From: Glycocaulis sp. | GTDB lineage: Bacteria > Pseudomonadota > Alphaproteobacteria > Caulobacterales > Maricaulaceae | Reading direction: 5' to 3' | Assembly (NCBI GenBank): GCA_022565665.1 | Contig: JAIUMI010000005.1 | Coordinates: forward strand, 87,069-151,068 | Length of the DNA: 64,000 bases | Shown here: one piece after another, positions 627 through 60,774 of the stretch | Numbering within the stretch: position 1 is the first letter of the stretch | Layout of the letters: the number at the start of each line of letters is the position of its first letter | The notes under the pieces: generated by a model | What the model saw: the letters and a program-made list of their open reading frames with translations, nothing else | What the model was told of the DNA's origin: nothing | Databases searched by the model: none | Made by a program: the position numbers and the translations under genes

Positions 627-1630
627 ACCCGCTTCAGGGCCGCATGCAGAACCTGAAGGTCTTCGGGCAGTCCGGTCTCGAACACCATTTCCTCGCGCGT
701 TTCCGGGTGGATGAAGCCGAGCACGGCGGCATGGAGCGCCTGACGGCCGAGTGACTTGATCTCCGGAATATCGGGCACGCCCTTGAGCTGGTTGACGCGC
801 TGCGGGCCATAGATGCGGTCGCCGACAAGGGCGTGGCCGATATGGTCCATATGGACGCGTATCTGGTGGGTGCGCCCGGTCTCCAGCCGGCATTCCACCA
901 GCGCGGCGAGCGGCGTGCCGATAGGGGCTTTGGCTTCCTGCCCGAAGGTCTCGAGCACCTGGTAATGGGTGATCGCTTCCTTGCCGGCCGTGCCGTTCCA
1001 GTCGAGCGCGGTCATTTTCAGCCTGTCGCGCGTGGAGCGGGCGATGCGGGTTGCTACCGTGCCCGAACGCGGGCGGGGCGCGCCGCGCGTGAAGGCCATA
1101 TAAGCGCGCTCCACGCTATGCCTGGCGAACTGTTTGGAGAGAAAGCGGTGGGCCATGTCGGTCTTGGCCACGACCAGCACGCCGGACGTGTCCTTGTCCA
1201 GCCGGTGCACGATGCCCGGCCGCTCCACCCCGCCAATACCCGACAGCGTGCCCTTGCAGTGATAAAGGAGGGCATGGACCAGCGTACCGGTCCACGCGCC
1301 CGCGCCGGGATGCACGGTCAGTCCCGCCGGCTTGTTGATGACGATCAGCGCATCATCCTCGTGCAATATGTCGAGCGGGATGTTTTCCGGCTTCGGCACC
1401 GCCGGTTCCAGCGGCGGCACGGTGAGGGTGTAGACATGGCCCTTGCGCAGCTTTGCGGCAGGGTCGGTCACCACCTCGCCATTGACGGCAAGCGCGCCTG
1501 CCTCGACCAGCGCCTTGCAGCGCGAACGCGACAGTTCAGGCCATTGCGCGGCCATCCAGCGGTCCAGCCGCTCGCCCTCATCGGCCTCGCTGGCCGTTAT
1601 GCTGCGGATATCATCTTGTGAACCCGTCAT
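623..1630 (-). CDS. rluD: RluA/RluD-family 23S rRNA pseudouridine synthase
   Basis: A 335-residue protein of the usual RluD length. An S4 RNA-binding domain lies at about residues 18-65, followed by the catalytic domain with the signature HRLDKDTSG, in which Asp145 is the expected nucleophile, and ETGRTHQIRVH further on. The enzyme converts specific uridines to pseudouridine, in RluD's case in helix 69 of 23S rRNA. Family membership is certain. The choice of RluD over RluA/RluC is inferred from the S4 domain and overall length. The ATG is preceded by AGGAT. The gene converges on the BASS gene with a TTAA overlap of the two stop codons. Confidence 0.9.
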   Translation of the reverse strand: MTGSQDDIRSITASEADEGERLDRWMAAQWPELSRSRCKALVEAGALAVNGEVVTDPAAKLRKGHVYTLTVPPLEPAVPKPENIPLDILHEDDALIVINKPAGLTVHPGAGAWTGTLVHALLYHCKGTLSGIGGVERPGIVHRLDKDTSGVLVVAKTDMAHRFLSKQFARHSVERAYMAFTRGAPRPRSGTVATRIARSTRDRLKMTALDWNGTAGKEAITHYQVLETFGQEAKAPIGTPLAALVECRLETGRTHQIRVHMDHIGHALVGDRIYGPQRVNQLKGVPDIPEIKSLGRQALHAAVLGFIHPETREEMVFETGLPEDLQVLHAALKRV

Positions 1631-1806
1631 AATTCATCCTGAGCGGCTACTCAGCGAGCGTGCTTTTTGTGCAACGCCGCCCGCAATGCTGCAGCGCGTC
1701 AAATATCTGTAACGCGGCTGAAGCGGTCCCGTCACATTGGCCAGTTAGCAGCGCATAGAGAGCCCGGCAAGCGTGCCGGGCGGGCGCTATTCAGGAGCAC
1801 CATGCC

Positions 1807-49628: not shown

Positions 49629-50198
49629 ATGCGCGAAGAACGCACCGGCAGATTTATCCGGCTTTACGCGGGCACAGGCAGGATGAGCGCCGAAGGCGAG
49701 GCCGCGGGTCCCGGCGCCCACCCGATGGATTCCTGGTGTCCGCCCTGCCCGCCCCCGCGCCGCCATGGCGGCACACCCATCGATGCCATTGTTGGTCTTG
49801 CCATCCGCATCGGCCTGGCTGCAGCGCTGTGGAGCTGGGCGCGGTCCAATGCCCTGCCGGTTTCCGACTGGGGTAACTGGCAGACCTGGTTTGCGCCCGA
49901 GCCGGGCTTTGTCAGCGCGGTCTCGGTCTGGCTGCCCGGCTTTGCCGATGCCGCTGGCGCCGCATTCTTTCTCATCCTTGCTGCCAGCCTCTTGCCGGTG
50001 GCCCTCGTGGCAGGCCTTCTCACCCGGCTTGCCGGTCTCACCGTTATCCTGTGCGCGGGCTTTTTCGCTCTGGCCATCGCGCCTGAAGGGTGGACGTTCG
50101 CGCTCGTCGCCGGGGCGCTTGGCATTTATCTCCTGCTGCGCGGGGCCGGGCCGCTCTCTGTGGACTGGGGCGCAGCGCGCCTCGCCCGGATGGGGTAA
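49629..50198 (+). CDS. DoxX-like membrane protein
   Basis: A 189-residue protein with four to five helices (about 50-66, 92-116, 122-140, 148-170), resembling DoxX/DUF-type proteins. The soluble N-terminus (about 50 residues) has a WCPPCPPPRRHGG motif with two Cys. GGGGGG precedes the ATG at 49629; a second ATG at 49683 would remove 18 residues. Function unknown; DoxX members are linked to respiratory or redox processes. Confidence 0.6.
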   Translation: MREERTGRFIRLYAGTGRMSAEGEAAGPGAHPMDSWCPPCPPPRRHGGTPIDAIVGLAIRIGLAAALWSWARSNALPVSDWGNWQTWFAPEPGFVSAVSVWLPGFADAAGAAFFLILAASLLPVALVAGLLTRLAGLTVILCAGFFALAIAPEGWTFALVAGALGIYLLLRGAGPLSVDWGAARLARMG

Positions 50199-51959: not shown

Positions 51960-53156
51960 ATGAACATCCATGAGCATCAGGCCAAGGCCGTCCTGAAAGC
52001 CTTCGGCGCCCCCGTTGCAGACGGCGTTGCGATCTTTTCCGCCGACGAAGCCGGCGCGGCAGCTGACAAACTGCCCGGACCGCTCTGGGTCGTGAAATCG
52101 CAGATCCATGCCGGCGGGCGTGGCAAGGGCAAGTTCAAGGAACTCCCCTCTGATGCCAAGGGCGGTGTGCGCCTCGCCTTCAGCCGCGATGAAGTAATCG
52201 CCCACGCCAAGGACATGCTCGGCAATACGCTGGTGACCCACCAGACCGGCCCGGCCGGCAAGCAGGTCAACCGGCTCTATATCGAGGACGGGGCCGATAT
52301 CGAGACCGAGCTCTATCTCTCGCTTCTGGTCAATCGCGAAACCGGCCGGGTGGCCTTCGTGGTCTCCACCGAAGGCGGCATGGATATCGAGGCGGTCGCC
52401 GAAGAAACGCCGGAGAAGATTCTCACCATCAATATCGACCCGGAAACGGGCGTGACCTCGGGCGACGCGGGCAAAATCGCCGATGCGCTGAAGCTTTCCG
52501 GCACGGCGCGCGATGACATGCTCTCGCTGGCACCAATCCTCTACCGGGCCTTCACCGAGAAGGATATGAGCCTTCTGGAGGTGAACCCGCTCATCGTGAT
52601 GAAGGACGGGCATCTGCGCGTACTGGACGCGAAAGTGTCCTTCGATGGCAATGCGCTCTTCCGCCATGAGGACATCCAGGCCCTGCGCGACCTCACCGAA
52701 GAGGACGAGAAGGAAATCGAGGCGTCGAAATACGACCTCGCCTATGTGGCGCTGGATGGCAATATCGGCTGCATGGTCAATGGCGCAGGCCTTGCCATGG
52801 CCACGATGGACATCATCAAGCTCTATGGCGCCGAGCCTGCCAACTTCCTCGATGTGGGCGGGGGCGCGTCGAAGGAGAAGGTGACCGCCGCCTTCAAGAT
52901 CATCACCGCCGACAAGAACGTCAAAGGCATCCTCGTGAACATCTTCGGCGGCATCATGCGCTGTGACGTCATCGCCGAAGGCGTGGTGGCCGCCGTGAAG
53001 GAGGTGGGCCTGAAAGTGCCGCTGGTGGTGCGCCTTGAGGGCACCAATGTCGAGCTTGGCAAGAAAATCCTCGACGAGAGCGGGCTCGACATCAATTCCG
53101 CCAATGATCTCGACGATGCCGCCCAGAAAATCGTCGCTGCCGTGAAGAAGGTCTAG
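51960..53156 (+). CDS. sucC: Succinyl-CoA ligase (ADP-forming), beta subunit
   Basis: A 398-residue ATP-grasp protein. The N-terminal [16 protein letters not shown] is diagnostic. Other marks are [41 protein letters not shown] and [14 protein letters not shown]. With SucD it makes ATP from succinyl-CoA in the TCA cycle. AAGGTG precedes the ATG. sucD follows after five bases. Family and order are standard. Confidence 0.97.
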
Positions 53157-53161
53157 GAACC

Positions 53162-54070
53162 ATGTCCGTACTCGTCAACAAAGACACCAAGGTTCTCGTT
53201 CAGGGCCTCACCGGCAAGACCGGCACCTTCCACACCGAGCAGGCGCTGGCCTATTACGGCACCCGCATGGTCGGCGGCATCCACCCGAAAAAGGGCGGGG
53301 AAAGCTGGACCAGCGGCATGGACGGCGCGGCCTCGCTGCCGATTTTCTCTACCGTGGCCGAAGGCAAGGAGCGCACCGGCGCAACCGCTTCGGTCGTCTA
53401 TGTCCCGCCTGCAGGCGCGGGCGCGGCGATCATCGAAGCCATCGATGCAGGTATGGAGCTGATCGTGTGCATCACCGAGGGCATCCCGGTCATGGACATG
53501 GTGAAGGTCAAGGCCCGCCTCGAAAAGTCGAACTCGCGCCTGCTGGGTCCGAACTGCCCCGGCGTGCTGACCCCCGAAGAGTGCAAGATCGGCATCATGC
53601 CGGGCAACATTTTCAAGAAGGGCTCGGTCGGCGTTGTCTCGCGTTCGGGCACGCTGACCTATGAAGCCGTGTTCCAGACGACGGCTGAAGGCCTTGGCCA
53701 GACGACCGCGGTCGGCATTGGCGGCGATCCGGTGAAAGGCACCGAGTTCATCGACATCCTGGAAATGTTCCTGGCCGATGATGAGACCAAATCCATCATC
53801 ATGATCGGCGAGATCGGCGGCACGGCGGAAGAGGAAGCCGCCCAGTTCCTGCGCGACGAAGCGAAGAAGGGCCGCAAGAAGCCGATGGTCGGCTTCATTG
53901 CCGGGCGCACCGCGCCGAAGGGCCGCACGATGGGCCATGCGGGCGCGATCGTCGCCGGTGGCAAGGGCGATGCGGAAAGCAAGATCGAGGCGATGAAGTC
54001 GGCCGGGATCGTGGTCTCCGACAGCCCGGCGCGCCTTGGCACGACGCTTAGCGACGTGCTGAAGGGCTAG
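53162..54070 (+). CDS. sucD: Succinyl-CoA ligase, alpha subunit
   Basis: A 302-residue CoA-binding subunit: [18 protein letters not shown] at the N-terminus, the [19 protein letters not shown] segment, and phospho-His in [21 protein letters not shown]. Co-transcribed with sucC. The stop overlaps that of the BLUF gene (CTAG at 54067-54070). Downstream transcription into sucAB would have to cross the oppositely oriented BLUF/EAL-like pair. Confidence 0.97.
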
Positions 54071-54576
54071 CCGCCGCGCGCCTTCAACCGCAGACTCATC
54101 ACCGCATCGACGTCATGAATCTCGGTCAGGCGCCTCAATAGCGTCTCCCTGTCCATCTCCTTCCAGCCACTGCTGGCCCTTGTCGGCAGTGGCACTTCAC
54201 TGGCATTAGCAAAAGCCATGGCCCAGTCGTCGAACAGGCGCTCGCTGGCGGGCTCCTTCAGAAGCACGGTGACTTCGGTGTGACGCCTATCCTCGCAGAT
54301 GCGCGCGTAGATCTCGTCAACGGCAGCCTGCGGCCCTTCCAGCATCTGGATGAAGCGCCCCCGGTCATACACCAGCACACCGGTAACGCCCGCGCGGCGG
54401 TTATGGCGCTCGCACGCGGCCATGATGTCGGAAATCTCGGCGCGGAAATGACCCTGCCCACGCGGTATGGCAACCGCCGACACATAGACCAGACGGATGA
54501 GCCTGGCGGCCTTTGTGCCGGAACCGGGTGCTTGCCCGAGATATAGCTGGCGCTCACGGCGTTCAGGCATGCTCAT
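54067..54576 (-). CDS. BLUF-domain photoreceptor protein
   Basis: A 169-residue protein whose main part is a BLUF (blue light using FAD) domain, about residues 25-125. Visible key residues are the flavin Tyr in [11 protein letters not shown], the Asn in [20 protein letters not shown], the Gln in [21 protein letters not shown] and a Trp/Met in FDDWAMAF. About 24 residues precede and 45 follow the domain; no output domain is attached. The ATG overlaps the TGA of the upstream EAL-like gene (ATGA), so the two are coupled. Blue light probably alters its contact with that partner. Converges on sucD. Confidence 0.87.
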
Positions 54577-55819
54577 GATGCTCCCTCCGATGCATCCTCG
54601 CGCTCGCCCGGCGTGAACCGGAAAGGCAGGGCGGGCTGTCTGCGTTCTTCTGCAACCGCTTTGCCACTGAGATAATCCGGGCCGATGGCCAGCCAGCCCG
54701 CCAGCGTTACGGGATCATGGCACTCCTCCACGGCCAGCATGATGCGCTGGTGCGTCAGCTTGGCTGCAAATGCCGCCAGCGCCACGCTATGGCGCGCGAA
54801 CACTTCCGGGGCGGGCGCAGAGACGGAGAAGATATCGACCCGGGAATCGTTGAAACGGTCCAGCCGGACGGTACGCGGGTCGATCCGCACCATGATGCGG
54901 CGGGTCAGAGTCCGGGCCAGCCGGCACACCTCGGTCAGACTGCCCATCGGCGCATCCATGCCTGTACCAAGAATGTGCAGGATCAATGCGGAGCGCGTCT
55001 TCTCGTCCAGCGCATTGATCGCGGCCATGTAAGGCAGGCGGTATTTCACCGTCACCAGCGTCTCGAAATGCACGGGTACGGCGAGGGCGCCCGGTGTGCC
55101 CCTGTCTGAGGCTTCCTGCCACGCCCTGCCAGCGGCCATCAGTACGTCACGGTCAAACTCCATGCGCATCGCCCCGCCGCCCTCGCTGGGTGAGAGAACA
55201 TGCCCGCGTACCAATGGGCCGTCGCCGCGCAGGCGGCCGACAGGGTGAACAATGTTCAACGCCGCAAACCCCGTTGCCGATGCCCAGACCGGCTCGAAAC
55301 GCAGCTCGAAGGCGGGCAGGCGGACAGGTTCTGGCGAGCGTGAAGGCGGTATCGGCCTCACGCCTTCATCGACATCAAGCGCGTCCTCCTCTTCCGCAGC
55401 CTCATGGGCGCGTGCGGCCGCGTCCATCGGGTCGGAATGGATGCCGCCAAACAGGTCTGACAGCGCGATGTCCACGGTCTCGGCGTGCAGTCCCAGGCCA
55501 GCGAGATAATCGTGCCAAGGAAAAAGGCCTTCAGCTCAGTCTCGATACGGCGGGTGAAGGCTTCAGCCTCTTCTGCCCGCGACGGGCCGGGCAGGACGAT
55601 AAATCCGTTGGCCGCGCACAGAATAAGATCATCTGACCCGATACGCTTGGAAATGAACTGTTCGCACGTGTCAAAGATGCGTTCCTTCACGCGCGGCCAC
55701 TTGTCCTTGTACTGTGCTTCGAGCACATCCAGATTGATCAGCTGGAGCTGTGTGGTCTCCAGCCGGGCAGCTTCCTTCAGTTTGGGACGGAAGCGGGCCA
55801 GTGTTGACAGAACCGACAT
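54573..55819 (-). pseudogene. Degenerate GGDEF/EAL-like protein, interrupted by a frameshift
   Basis: One gene in two frames. The 5' frame (from ATG 55819, MSVLSTLARFRPKLKEAARL) has a GGDEF-like pattern LQLINLDVLEAQYKDKWPRV and RIGSDDLILCAANGFIVLPG, where the catalytic GGDEF reads ANGFI. The 3' frame (open to 54573) looks like an EAL domain with start LRFEPVWASATGFAALNIVHPV (EAL replaced by ALN) and end RIMLAVEECHDPVTLAG, then AIGPDYLSGKAV. Break: T5 run (complement of 55521-55525). One more T joins ELKAFF to PWHDYLAGLGLHAETVDIALSDLF. Full length about 415 residues. Likely a catalytically dead c-di-GMP-type effector paired with the BLUF protein. Domain calls are by eye. Confidence 0.62.
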
Positions 55820-56172
55820 CACATCACTTGTGCGGAGCTGCGGGCTGTTCGCGCTCCTGACAGGAATTAAAATATTCCAAGCATGAAACTTCAAATTACA
55901 AACAGAAAGACAGTTAACCGCACACTATGCTTTATGTGTTGTTCATGAGTGTGATGGCGTGGCGCAACTGTCCCCGGCCGGTGCGCGGCCGACCAGGCAC
56001 GCCGCGATATCGTGCAGGTGTGCACCACACGAACGTACGTTCGTGCCTATTGCCGTTCCAGAGCACGATTTGCATCCATTTGGGCTTCTCAATTGCGTCC
56101 AACACGCATAGATGTGAAGCCATCCCCCTTGTGCGCCCTTGTGCGCTGCACTCCCTGCCCTGAAGGGCCAAG
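55820..56172. other. Spacer between the GGDEF/EAL-like gene and sucA
   Basis: A 353-base divergent spacer. It holds a perfect 18-bp palindrome at 56028-56045, a GC-rich hairpin-prone stretch (55972-56000), and an AT-rich piece at 55868-55940 that probably contains the EAL-like gene promoter. No coding region is credible. The sucA ATG at 56173 is preceded by TGAAGGGCC. Confidence 0.55.
56028..56045. promoter_or_regulatory. 18-bp perfect palindrome upstream of sucA
   Basis: CACGAACGTACGTTCGTG reads the same on both strands. It lies about 130 bases before sucA and 210 bases before the EAL-like gene start. Size and symmetry fit a TetR-like dimer site; the protein is unknown. Confidence 0.5.
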
Positions 56173-59160
56173 ATGACCGACGCTCGCTCCTCCACGAACC
56201 AGACTTTCCTCGACACTTCTTTCCTTTTCGGCGCCAACGCCATCTATCTGGAAGACATGGCCGCCCGCTATGCCAGCGATCCGGCCTCGGTCCCGGCGAG
56301 CTGGCGGAAATTCTTTGAAGCGGTCGGCGATGAAGCCTCCGCCGCCACGCGCGCTGCGAAGGGACCGGGCTGGAAGCGCAAGGACTGGCCGCGCGAGGCT
56401 AATGGCGAAATGGTCTCCGCGCTGGGCGATATCGAGCGCGCCGTTCCTGCCCTGCCGGAGAAAATCGCCGCCCGCATGGATGGTGCTGCTCCCGCTGACA
56501 TTCACGCGGCCGTCAAGGACAGCATCTCGGCCATCATGCTGATCCGCGCCTACCGCATGCGCGGGCATCTGGCGGCCGACCTCGACCCACTGGGCCTGTC
56601 AGAGCGCGAGCCGCAGCCCGAGCTCGATCCGGGAAATTACGGGTTTGGCGAGGCCGATCTCGACCGCGAGATTTTCATCAATGGCTATCTCGGCCTTGAG
56701 ACCGCGACCGTCCGCGAAATCCTCGACATCCTGCAACGCACCTATTGCGGCACGTTCGGCGTGGAGTTCATGCACATCTCCAATCCGGAGGAAAAAGCAT
56801 GGCTGCAGGAGCGTATTGAAGGGCCGGACAAGGAGATCGCCTTTTCCGACAACGGCAAGAAGGCGATCCTGAGAAAGCTGGTCGAGACGGAAGCCTTCGA
56901 GCGCTTCCTGCACAAGCGCTATCCCGGCACCAAGCGCTTCGGCATTGATGGCGGCGAGGCGATGGTTCCCGCGCTCGAACAGATCATCAAGCGCGGCGGG
57001 GCCATGGGCGTCACCGATATCGTGCTGGGCATGCCCCACCGGGGCCGGCTGAACGTGCTCGCCGCCGTGATGGGCAAGCCCTATCATGTGATCTTCCACG
57101 AATTCCAGGGCGGCTCGACGCTGGGCGAGGACGAGTTCTCGTCAGGCGATGTGAAATACCATCTGGGTTCGTCATCCACGCGCGAGTTCGACGGCAATAC
57201 CGTCAACCTGTCGCTCACCGCCAACCCCTCCCACCTGGAGGCCGTTGACCCGGTGGTGCTGGGCAAGGTGCGCGCCAAGCAGTTCAAATACCGTGTGCAG
57301 CTGGGCGATGATGCCAATACCGCTGAAAAGGTACTGCCGCTCCTGCTGCACGGGGATGCGGCCTTTGCCGGGCAGGGCATTGTGGCAGAATGCTTCGGCC
57401 TGTCGGGCCTGAAGGGCCACCGAACGGGCGGGGCCGTCCACTTCATCGTCAACAACCAGATCGGCTTTACCACCGACCCGAAGGATTCCCGGTCCTCGCC
57501 CTATCCGTCCGACGTGGCGCTGATGGTGCAGGCCCCGATCTTCCATGTGAACGGGGATGACCCCGAAGCGGTCGTCTTTGCCGCCAAGATCGCCACCGAA
57601 TACCGTCAGACCTTCGGCAAGGATGTCGTCATCGACATGTTCTGCTATCGCCGATTTGGCCATAACGAGGGCGATGATCCCTCCTTCACCCAGCCGATCA
57701 TGTACAAGGCGATCGCCGGGCATAAGCCGACCCGCGACCTTTACACCGAACGCCTGATGGATGAGGGCGTCGTCACCAAGGACGAGGTGGATGGCTGGGT
57801 CAGCGAGTTTGAGGCCTTCCTTGATGACGAGTTCGAGCTCGGCAAATCCTACAAGACCAACAAGGCCGACTGGCTGGACGGCGTGTGGGCCGGGTTGGGC
57901 CTGCCCGACGAGGATGACCGGCGCGGCCAGACCGCCGTGGACATGGACCGGCTGAAGGATGTCGGCCAGGCGATGACGGAAATCCCGTCCGGCTACAACA
58001 TCCACAGAACGCTGCAGCGCGTGATCAAGGCCCGCCGCGACGCCATCGAGGCGGGCGAAGGCATTGACTGGGCGACCGCCGAGCATCTGGCCTTCGGCAC
58101 GCTGCTGACCGAGGGCTTCCCCGTGCGCCTTTCGGGCCAGGATTGCGGCCGGGGCACGTTCTCCCAGCGCCATTCCCACCTGATCGATCAGGAAACCCAG
58201 GAGCGCCATACCTTCCTCAATCATCTGAGTGAGGATCAGGCGCGCTATGAAGTGATCGATTCCATGCTGTCGGAAGAGGCCGTGCTGGGCTTTGAGTATG
58301 GCTACTCGCTCTCCGCGCCCAATACGCTCGTGATGTGGGAAGCCCAGTTCGGCGACTTCACCAACGGCGCGCAGGTCATCATCGACCAGTTCATTTCCTC
58401 TTCGGAGCGCAAATGGCTGCGCATGTCCGGCCTCGTCATGCTGCTGCCCCATGGCTATGAGGGGCAGGGCCCGGAGCACTCCTCGGCCCGCCTTGAGCGC
58501 TTCCTGCAGCAATGCGCCGAGGACAATATGCAGGTGGCCAACTGCTCCACCCCGGCGAACTATTTCCACATTCTGCGGCGCCAGATCCACCGGGGCTTCC
58601 GCAAGCCGCTGGTGATCATGACGCCCAAATCGCTTCTGCGTCACAAGCGCTGCGTGTCCGATCTCTCCGAGTTCGGTCCGGGCTCCTCCTTCCACCGCGT
58701 ATTGTGGGATGATGGTGATCAGAGCGTGCGCAAGGACCGGGGCGAGTTCGCCCAGCTGAGCGCCGAACCGCTGGCCGCGGACAAGGATATCCGCCGCGTC
58801 GTGCTGTGCTCGGGCAAGGTCTATTATGATCTGCTTGAAGCGCGCGAGGCCAAGGGCATCAACGATGTCTACCTCTTGCGCGTGGAGCAGTTCTATCCCT
58901 TCCCCGCCAAGTCTATCATTGACGAGCTGAAGCGCTTCCCCGACGCCGACATTGTCTGGTGTCAGGAGGAGCCGAAGAATATGGGCGGCTGGACCTTCGT
59001 GGAGCCCTATCTGGAATTCTGCCTTGAGAAGGTGGGTGGCAAGTCGACCCGTCCGCGCTATGCGGGCCGGGCCGCCTCCGCCTCGACCGCGACAGGGTTG
59101 CTCTCACGCCATCAGGCCCAGCAGAAAGCCCTCGTTGACGAAGCCCTTTCCGACGACTGA
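56173..59160 (+). CDS. sucA: 2-oxoglutarate dehydrogenase E1 component
   Basis: A 995-residue thiamine-diphosphate enzyme that decarboxylates 2-oxoglutarate. Motifs: N-terminal lipoyl-E2-interacting helix region (NQTFLDTSFLFGANAIYLEDM), GMPHRGRLNVLAAVMGKP, the ThDP/Mg site GDDPEAVVFAAKIATEYRQTFGKDVVIDMFCYRRFGHNEGDDPSFTQP (seen in parts), and the C-terminal QEEPKNMGGWTFVEPYLE. Length and order are those of alphaproteobacterial SucA. sucB follows after 30 bases. A palindrome upstream may regulate it. Confidence 0.98.
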   Translation: MTDARSSTNQTFLDTSFLFGANAIYLEDMAARYASDPASVPASWRKFFEAVGDEASAATRAAKGPGWKRKDWPREANGEMVSALGDIERAVPALPEKIAARMDGAAPADIHAAVKDSISAIMLIRAYRMRGHLAADLDPLGLSEREPQPELDPGNYGFGEADLDREIFINGYLGLETATVREILDILQRTYCGTFGVEFMHISNPEEKAWLQERIEGPDKEIAFSDNGKKAILRKLVETEAFERFLHKRYPGTKRFGIDGGEAMVPALEQIIKRGGAMGVTDIVLGMPHRGRLNVLAAVMGKPYHVIFHEFQGGSTLGEDEFSSGDVKYHLGSSSTREFDGNTVNLSLTANPSHLEAVDPVVLGKVRAKQFKYRVQLGDDANTAEKVLPLLLHGDAAFAGQGIVAECFGLSGLKGHRTGGAVHFIVNNQIGFTTDPKDSRSSPYPSDVALMVQAPIFHVNGDDPEAVVFAAKIATEYRQTFGKDVVIDMFCYRRFGHNEGDDPSFTQPIMYKAIAGHKPTRDLYTERLMDEGVVTKDEVDGWVSEFEAFLDDEFELGKSYKTNKADWLDGVWAGLGLPDEDDRRGQTAVDMDRLKDVGQAMTEIPSGYNIHRTLQRVIKARRDAIEAGEGIDWATAEHLAFGTLLTEGFPVRLSGQDCGRGTFSQRHSHLIDQETQERHTFLNHLSEDQARYEVIDSMLSEEAVLGFEYGYSLSAPNTLVMWEAQFGDFTNGAQVIIDQFISSSERKWLRMSGLVMLLPHGYEGQGPEHSSARLERFLQQCAEDNMQVANCSTPANYFHILRRQIHRGFRKPLVIMTPKSLLRHKRCVSDLSEFGPGSSFHRVLWDDGDQSVRKDRGEFAQLSAEPLAADKDIRRVVLCSGKVYYDLLEAREAKGINDVYLLRVEQFYPFPAKSIIDELKRFPDADIVWCQEEPKNMGGWTFVEPYLEFCLEKVGGKSTRPRYAGRAASASTATGLLSRHQAQQKALVDEALSDD

Positions 59161-59190
59161 CCCCTTACCCCTGACCGGAAGCACGAAACC

Positions 59191-60774
59191 ATGAGCACCA
59201 TCACCGTTCCCACCCTTGGCGAGTCCGTTTCGGAAGCCACTGTCGGCACCTGGCTGGTCAAGGAAGGTCAGTCCGTGAAGAAGGACGACATTCTGGTCGA
59301 GCTGGAAACCGACAAGGTGTCGGTTGAAGTGCGCGCGGAGGAAGATGGCGTCATCACCTCCATCGCCGCGCAGGAGGGCGATACGGTGGAGATCGGCGCC
59401 AAGCTGGCCGATTTCGAGGCCGGTGCGTCGGGTGGTTCGAAACCTGCTGCCAAGAAAGACGACAAGGCCGACGCCAGGCCGGAAAAGAAGGCTGAAAGCA
59501 AGAAGGATGACGCCGGGAAGGACGAGGCCAAGTCCGGCGACGACAAATCCGGCGATGACAAGTCCGGTAATGGCAAGTCCGGCGGCGGTGATCTCGTTGA
59601 TGCCAAGGTTCCCGTGATGGGCGAGAGCGTAGCCGAAGGCACGGCAGGCAACTGGCTGGTCAAGCCCGGCGAGGCGGTCGAGATGGATCAGGCGATCCTG
59701 GAGATCGAAACCGACAAAGTGGCCGTGGAAGTGCCCTCACCGGCCGCTGGCGTGCTGGAAGAGACGCTGGTCAAGGAAGGCGACAGCGTGGAGCCCGGTC
59801 AGGTGATCGCGCGCATCCGCGAAGGTGCCTCTGCCGGAAAGTCCGGGAAATCCGAAGCCGCGCCTGCACCGGCCAAGGCCGCGTCCAGTGGCTCTGGCGA
59901 TGTGAAGGCCATGCCGTCAGCAGAACGCGTGGCGAAGGAAAACAATCTTGACCTCTCCAAGGTCGAAGGTACGGGCCGCGATGGCCGTGTGACCAAGGGC
60001 GATGCGCTTGCTGCCCTGTCTGCCCCCGCCAAGGCGCCCGAACCTGCCAAGGCGTCTGCACCGCGCGAGACCGGCGAGCGCGAGGAACGGGTGAAGATGA
60101 CCCGCCTGCGCCAGACCATCGCCCGGCGTCTGAAGGAAGCCCAGAACAGCGCCGCCATGCTGACCACGTATAACGAGGCGGACATGAGCGCGATTCAATC
60201 GCTGCGCAAGGAAATCCAGGAAGATTTCGTCGCCAAGCACGGCGTGAAGCTCGGCTTCATGAGCTTCTTCGTGAAGGCCTGCGTCGCTGCGCTGCAGGAC
60301 ATCCCGGCGGTCAATGCCGAGATCGACGGCACCGACATCATCTACAAGAATTACTACGATATCGGCGTGGCCGTCGGCACCGACCGGGGCCTTGTCGTAC
60401 CGGTCGTGCGCGATTGCGACAGCCGCTCGCTGGCCGATATCGAGAAGGGCATCATGGATCTGGGCAAGCGCGCCCGCGATGGTCAGCTGGGCCTTGAGGA
60501 CATGCAGGGCGCGACCTTCACCATCTCCAATGGCGGGGTGTATGGCTCGCTGATGAGCTCGCCCATCCTCAATGCGCCGCAATCGGGCATTCTGGGCATG
60601 CACAAGATCCAGGAGCGCCCTGTGGCCCATAACGGGCAGGTCGTGATCCGCCCGATGATGTATCTGGCGCTTTCTTATGATCACCGGATCGTGGACGGCA
60701 AGGAGGCCGTGACCTTCCTGGTGCGCGTGAAGGAAAGCCTGGAGAAGCCGGAACGGCTGCTGCTGGATATCTAG
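59191..60774 (+). CDS. sucB: Dihydrolipoyllysine-residue succinyltransferase (E2o) with two lipoyl domains
   Basis: A 527-residue E2. Two lipoyl domains are present: residues 1-77 with ETDKVSVEV and about 135-210 with ETDKVAVEV, each with its lipoyl Lys. Between them is a Lys/Asp/Gly linker with tandem KSGDD units (59530-59585 DNA). A peripheral subunit-binding domain follows (about 236-270: [31 protein letters not shown]), and the catalytic core ends with [13 protein letters not shown] (catalytic His). It transfers succinyl to CoA. The classical E. coli E2o has one lipoyl domain; the doubling is noted as a finding. Confidence 0.97.

Follow-up and report, generated by a model that had tools for sequence, protein, structure and literature searches.

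Two adjacent minus-strand genes between sucCD and sucAB, in a 64,000-nucleotide stretch of Glycocaulis sp. DNA (hereafter the window), appear to form a two-gene blue-light switch that signals by protein contact, without c-di-GMP turnover, and that is probably impaired or inactive in this genome. We put the probability of this reading at slightly better than one half (about 0.53). The downstream gene would encode a short BLUF photoreceptor, and the upstream gene a GGDEF-EAL protein, hereafter the partner, that by its residues should be unable to make or cleave c-di-GMP.

In BLUF proteins, light changes the hydrogen bonds around the flavin, and we propose that the same change opens the signaling path here. 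The BLUF protein and its partner would bind each other, and the light signal would pass through the C-terminal helices of the BLUF protein to the partner, as in the PapB-PapA pair. The output would be altered protein contacts, as suggested by the lost active sites of the partner and by E. coli BluF. A two-protein switch, proposed in an earlier note on this DNA, is the best reading because a BLUF gene coupled to a degenerate GGDEF/EAL gene is conserved as a pair in relatives.

Gene order at the suc locus

The order at the locus is sucC+, sucD+, BLUF-, EAL-like-, sucA+, sucB+, so that the pair lies between sucCD and sucAB in opposite orientation, just as the earlier note described. sucC and sucD (51960–54070, +) converge with the pair, and sucA and sucB (56173–60774, +) diverge from it. 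We take these four genes to be the suc genes of those names, and in our analysis they were compared only among themselves. The BLUF gene (54067–54576, -) encodes 169 amino acids, including a C-terminal extension, and shares four bases with sucD, end to end. Upstream of it lie the C-terminal, EAL-like part of the partner (54573–55535, -) and, in another frame, its N-terminal, GGDEF-like part (55520–55819, -), whose ATG at 55819 is 353 bases from the divergent sucA.

In the C-terminal part of the partner, the open frame runs from 55535 to 54576 and then reaches the stop; its first listed start is a GTG at 55475. The resulting reading frame (54573–55475, -) and the BLUF frame overlap by four bases, ATGA (54573–54576), which combine the partner stop with the BLUF start. 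This overlap, noted earlier and confirmed here, would couple translation of the two genes. No sigma-70-like promoter was found, and terminator-like sites did not exceed the shuffled level.

The surrounding region has several further features. Only five bases separate sucC from sucD in the window, against a gap of roughly 0.8–1.8 kb between these genes in G008, G010 and Glycocaulis albus (L134, L135 and L063). An inverted repeat, GCCCTTCAGGGC, lies near the sucA start (about 56157–56168) and is identical in five aligned genomes of the Glycocaulis group. A small membrane-protein-like gene at 49629–50198 (+) has no Pfam match at E ≤ 0.001; a similar gene occurs near suc in relatives, and one relative's copy matches PF04173 (DoxD; E 5.1e-6).

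The BLUF photoreceptor

A stand-alone BLUF gene had been recognized from the sequence by eye, and the profile search agrees: the product of 54067–54576 (-) matches PF04940 with E 2.6e-29 and covers all 92 model positions. Alignment with other BLUF proteins finds all four of the Tyr, Asn, Gln and Trp residues that we take to serve the flavin site. Judged by domain and flavin-site residues, this protein is a BLUF photoreceptor.

BLUF proteins that neighbor a partner are related to one another, although not cleanly so. They cluster in a BLUF tree, where four changes suffice against a shuffled mean of 9.7 (0 of 500 shuffles were as low). They do not form one resolved clade in that tree, and the G076 BLUF sits elsewhere on a long branch. 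The tree and the divergent G076 protein, which lacks the Trp and is encoded upstream of its partner, count against the proposed switch.

Of 13 paired or remnant BLUFs, 11 carry a C-terminal pattern, S-[VEI]-[LMI]-[SRN]-[VL], or AVM[SN]L in the window and G008; none of 24 others does. These 24 comprise L002, which encodes another short BLUF in the genome of the window, and 23 of 28 unpaired BLUF loci (L039, L040, L042, L045 and L051 were left out). Because the pattern was written after viewing the aligned paired sequences, it is descriptive and does not constitute a test; as a motif, it would fit a docking tail.

The distance between the flavin-site Tyr and Asn also differs, at 26–27 in all 12 paired BLUFs measured and 21–23 in 23 of the 24 others. 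We considered the long spacing as a marker of pairing and rejected it as not clean, since the second BLUF of the same genome has it too. That gene lies at about 1342–1791 (-) of L002 (G000:C9:103611-106895), beside what we take, by eye, to be a cytochrome bd subunit II-like gene and a small CydX-like gene.

The partner protein

The outline of a GGDEF and an EAL domain had been traced in the upstream gene by eye. Single-sequence searches detected it weakly at best. With E allowed up to 10, the partner pieces of the window have no Pfam GGDEF or EAL match. PF00563 (EAL) is matched by 4 of 28 relatives (best E 0.011), and NCBIfam returned only weak matches for the 28 (best E 0.047). Assigning domains to the partner therefore needed profile and fold comparison.

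Profiles built from the 28 relatives recovered both domains. The C-terminal-half profile aligned with 30 same-genus EAL domains at probability 94.5 and E 8e-8 over 223 columns. The N-terminal-half profile aligned with 30 GGDEF domains at probability 60.9 and E 8e-5 over 88 columns; when six GGDEF domains were used, the probability was 8.8. E for the controls (reversed profiles, wrong halves, SucD, malate synthase, S9 peptidase and TonB receptor) ranged from 0.13 to 0.94 over both halves, at 0.19 or worse for EAL and 0.13 or worse for GGDEF.

We also compared folds, using AlphaFold2 models, made from seven sequences each, of an Oceanicaulis relative (L062; mean pLDDT 71.8) and, separately, of the 153 residues at its N terminus (76.2). 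Foldseek matched the first model to the solved GGDEF-EAL protein 5m3c across both domains (E 2.9e-13, TM 0.43), with LapD, FimX and similar proteins among the further matches. The N-terminal model had a single PDB match at E ≤ 0.001 (5euh, E 8e-4). Among its best 50 PDB matches, 44 are GGDEF or diguanylate cyclase structures, and the other six are CRISPR subunits or an adenylyl cyclase. The controlled profiles and the Foldseek matches thus uphold the outline. The C-terminal half is assigned the EAL domain fold on these grounds, and the N-terminal half, which matches less strongly, is assigned the GGDEF domain fold with moderate confidence.

Neither half appears to be catalytic. The GGDEF hairpin of the window partner aligns with R-AAN-GF, placing AANGF at the motif position, and [GS]G[DE]EF is absent from all 46 family members. 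In the EAL half, 11 catalytic positions were mapped through the profile alignment, in which the first Glu column may be off by two. All 11 relatives keep 1–3 canonical residues per row, compared with 9–11 in 29 of 30 same-genus EAL domains (the thirtieth row is gapped there). Of the DD motif, all 11 relatives retain the second Asp. The reported loss of both catalytic motifs is thereby corroborated. Judged by its residues, the partner can neither make nor cleave c-di-GMP and lacks the motifs of both an EAL phosphodiesterase and a diguanylate cyclase.

A protein that does not turn over c-di-GMP could still bind it, as FimX and LapD do, and light sensed by the BLUF protein could tune that binding. 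The FimX EAL domain is the nearest PDB sequence to the family profile (E 0.0017), and the Foldseek matches to LapD, FimX and similar proteins point the same way. Against this stand the few canonical residues left in each row at the mapped EAL positions, which in FimX include ligand-binding residues. E. coli BluF, which is likewise degenerate, does not bind c-di-GMP (PMC3509220). We consider a light-tuned c-di-GMP receptor very improbable and favor the contact-based switch.

Conservation of the pair in relatives

Within the bacterial family, a 300-amino-acid piece of the partner has a match in 54 of 137 genomes, and PF04940 in 89. On named contigs, the first protein scan returned no relative and the alignment query gave six named loci. 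In a 46-member family tree, drawn with its root at the midpoint, 12 partners are set off from the rest by a branch supported at 100/100. These BLUF-clade partners come from the window (G000), G008–G012, G076, G081, G082, G084, G089 and G093. They include Glycocaulis albus (G009), G. profundi (G011), Oceanicaulis sp. HLUCCA04 (G012), Marinicauda pacifica (G082), Alkalicaulis satelles (G084) and an Oceanicaulis MAG (G089). Of these, G009, G011 and G012 belong to the same genus, g1, as the window.

The survey of related genomes that the earlier note called for shows that the two genes do co-occur. A BLUF gene adjoins the partner in 11 of the 12 clade genomes (downstream in ten, upstream in G076) and is absent in G. 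albus. BLUF and partner are separate reading frames in the window and in relatives alike. Eight of the 12 clade members adjoin sucA or sucD. In the remaining four (G011, G076, G081 and G082), no suc gene was found within the 13–15 kb examined, and BLUF is still adjacent. In two further genomes, G090 and G094, BLUF lies beside sucA and the partner is reduced to fragments. Neither gene strictly needs the other, given the G. albus partner without BLUF and the two genomes that combine BLUF with partner remnants.

The two genes might also be neighbors that share no mechanism, with BLUF serving another protein and the dead GGDEF-EAL protein acting alone. Such independence would suit the 34 of 46 tree rows in which the family member has no adjacent BLUF, as well as the solitary partner of G. 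albus. It accounts poorly for the coupled frames and for an adjacency that is kept through changes of location, and we find it the hardest of the readings to believe. A shared switch remains our preferred account of the pair.

An order-wide search for the partner matched 102 of 398 genomes, a sample without G076. In it, the ten BLUF-clade members besides the window scored at least 565 bits, the split window copy 378, and the rest, among the matches listed, at most 223. Class-wide, 63 of 387 genomes matched, with at most 121 bits among the matches listed, the window apart.

Frame break and decay of the module

The upstream gene has the domain outline ascribed to it, but the earlier note's single upstream gene is not intact in the window. 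Its N-terminal part is open in frame 0 (55900–55361) and its C-terminal part in frame 2 (55535–54576). Relative to the nearest relative, G008 (80% identity), the DNA has a one-base length difference near 55512, which places the frameshift within 55505–55520 (-). The partner frame is single and intact in 10 of 11 relatives (alignment A1; open frames of 393–498 amino acids); G093, the exception, loses the frame over its final part. The intact frame in relatives marks the break as a lesion of the window copy. We set aside a programmed frameshift on the basis of those ten relatives and of the lack of an obvious slippery run, by eye.

Substitution rates between the window and G008 speak to the history of both genes. 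For the partner, dN is 0.018 and dS 0.595 in the N-terminal part (99 codons), and 0.119 and 0.882 in the C-terminal part (292 codons); for BLUF (166 codons) they are 0.206 and 1.228. The corresponding values are 0.019 and 0.473 for sucD and, over the first 269 codons, 0.068 and 0.623 for sucA. With dN/dS well below 1, BLUF and partner have, by this comparison, both been under past selection, so that the frame break is either recent or an assembly error. Ahead of the hairpin, a position that is Arg in 10 of 11 relatives is Cys in the window partner, which leans towards real decay over an assembly error. With its partner split, the switch has probably lost some or all of its function in this genome.

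Damage extends beyond the window, and the module is also undergoing decay. Six of the 14 genomes with the module or its remains are affected: the window and G093 in the partner frame, G010 by a broken frame in its downstream BLUF, G. albus by the absence of BLUF, and G090 and G094, whose partner is down to fragments. The latter two loci show partner remnants beside an open BLUF frame, at about 6722–7119 of L138 and 6180–6347 of L139; one keeps the first and last parts of the partner and the other the last part.

These lesions, together with the Cys substitution in the window, raise the possibility that the module is a former light switch, now dispensable, that is being lost piecemeal and no longer functions in the window. 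The low dN/dS of both genes is at odds with this, as is an N-terminal part of the partner as conserved as SucD, and no break in BLUF or partner was found in the remaining eight of the 14 genomes. We consider so general a loss unlikely, if less so than the other alternatives, and we retain the reading of a contact-based switch that is impaired in this genome.

The wider family and the suc genes

Family members also occur near suc genes without BLUF. In genus g12, which is probably Maricaulis, 15 of the 16 genomes examined have a family member on the sucC strand, 105–117 nt upstream of that gene. This genus comprises 19 genomes, of which G067, G074 and G075 were left out; in G072, a histidine kinase gene intervenes between the family member and sucC. 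The g12 members fall outside the BLUF-partner clade in the 46-member tree. At L143, L163 and L164, all in g12, two family members stand in tandem upstream of sucC, and the gene looks to have been duplicated in place.

Other family members lie elsewhere. Ten tree rows adjoin TonB receptor or S9 peptidase genes (L145, L146, L147, L150, L154, L158–L161 and L168), and a gene of a malate synthase cluster occurs in eight of these ten loci; one member of each of these gene clusters was checked against Pfam, two for TonB. The neighborhoods come from 40 regions, hand-chosen from search matches, besides shorter loci, and represent part of the wider family.

This distribution raises the question of whether the family regulates SucCD or SucAB, a TCA-cycle step, with BLUF serving as the light input in one clade. 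In its favor are the eight of 12 BLUF-clade genomes in which the pair adjoins sucA or sucD, and the second clade upstream of sucC in g12. The position may nonetheless come from a common ancestor, four of 12 BLUF-clade members and the TonB receptor/S9 peptidase clade lie elsewhere, and the window pair runs opposite to the suc genes. We regard such regulation as quite improbable. In its fullest form, the dead GGDEF-EAL family of Maricaulaceae would regulate the succinyl-CoA synthetase/2-oxoglutarate dehydrogenase step, and one clade would have recruited BLUF, letting blue light influence the TCA cycle through protein contact and independently of c-di-GMP; to this we give slightly less credence again. 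Among the matches listed from the c-di-GMP and suc literature, none, judged by title and abstract start, concerned the action of a degenerate EAL protein on the enzymes encoded by suc genes. The link between module and TCA cycle is so far positional and suggestive.

Comparison with known systems

The architecture of the partner resembles that of FimX, LapD and CsrD, GGDEF-EAL proteins with degenerate domains. To our knowledge, none of the three has a BLUF partner. FimX, as seen above, also shows weak sequence similarity to the partner family profile, and PMC5635695 describes CsrD as a degenerate GGDEF-EAL protein.

BLUF proteins coupled to EAL domains are known as single chains. E. coli BluF (YcgF), as portrayed in PMC3509220, has a degenerate EAL domain without phosphodiesterase activity and antagonizes a repressor by contact. 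The window pair likewise joins BLUF to a degenerate EAL domain, and the contact-based output that we propose follows this example. Unlike the pair, E. coli BluF is one chain, has no GGDEF half and is encoded next to its MerR-type target gene; the pair is flanked by suc genes on both sides, with no MerR-type gene beside it. BlrP1 of Klebsiella pneumoniae also couples BLUF to an EAL domain; it is a single-chain, active, light-stimulated phosphodiesterase, according to PMC8846402, whereas the window module has separate chains and has lost the catalytic residues.

Separate chains, too, have a precedent, in Rhodopseudomonas palustris PapB, a short BLUF protein, and PapA, a solo EAL protein, which form a two-protein pair and assemble as a heterotetramer (PMC8846402). 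The earlier note's two-protein switch stands as the best reading of a conserved, coupled pair, but not its suggestion that separation is itself distinctive. As in PapB-PapA, a short BLUF and an EAL-type protein occupy separate chains and are encoded together. The PapB-PapA complex is demonstrated and the BLUF-partner complex is proposed by analogy, a likeness drawn from the description of PapA and PapB. PapA is phosphodiesterase-active in the same account, in contrast to a window partner with GGDEF-like and EAL-like halves that both lack active-site residues. According to a review (PMC4844311), short proteins make up 64% of BLUF proteins, and 34% carry EAL domains, some of them degenerate. Given these examples and counts, neither split chains nor a dead EAL domain is new alone.

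What appears new is the combination of a separate-chain BLUF with a dead GGDEF-EAL protein, and the second clade of the family upstream of sucC in g12. The literature searched, which covered few subscription journals, yielded no description of this combination and no papers on BLUF with EAL in Maricaulis or on blue light in Glycocaulis. The recurrent suc location of the partner family, with or without BLUF, offers a testable link between signaling proteins and central metabolism, and the intact, half-lost and remnant versions in relatives provide material for following the decay of a light switch.

The genes papA and papB are neighbors, as are the two genes described here. Set beside PapB-PapA and E. 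coli BluF, the pair would unite departures already known singly, a BLUF protein on its own chain and a catalytically dead effector, and add a GGDEF-like half. It may thus offer a natural case for how a BLUF signal reaches a partner without enzymatic output.
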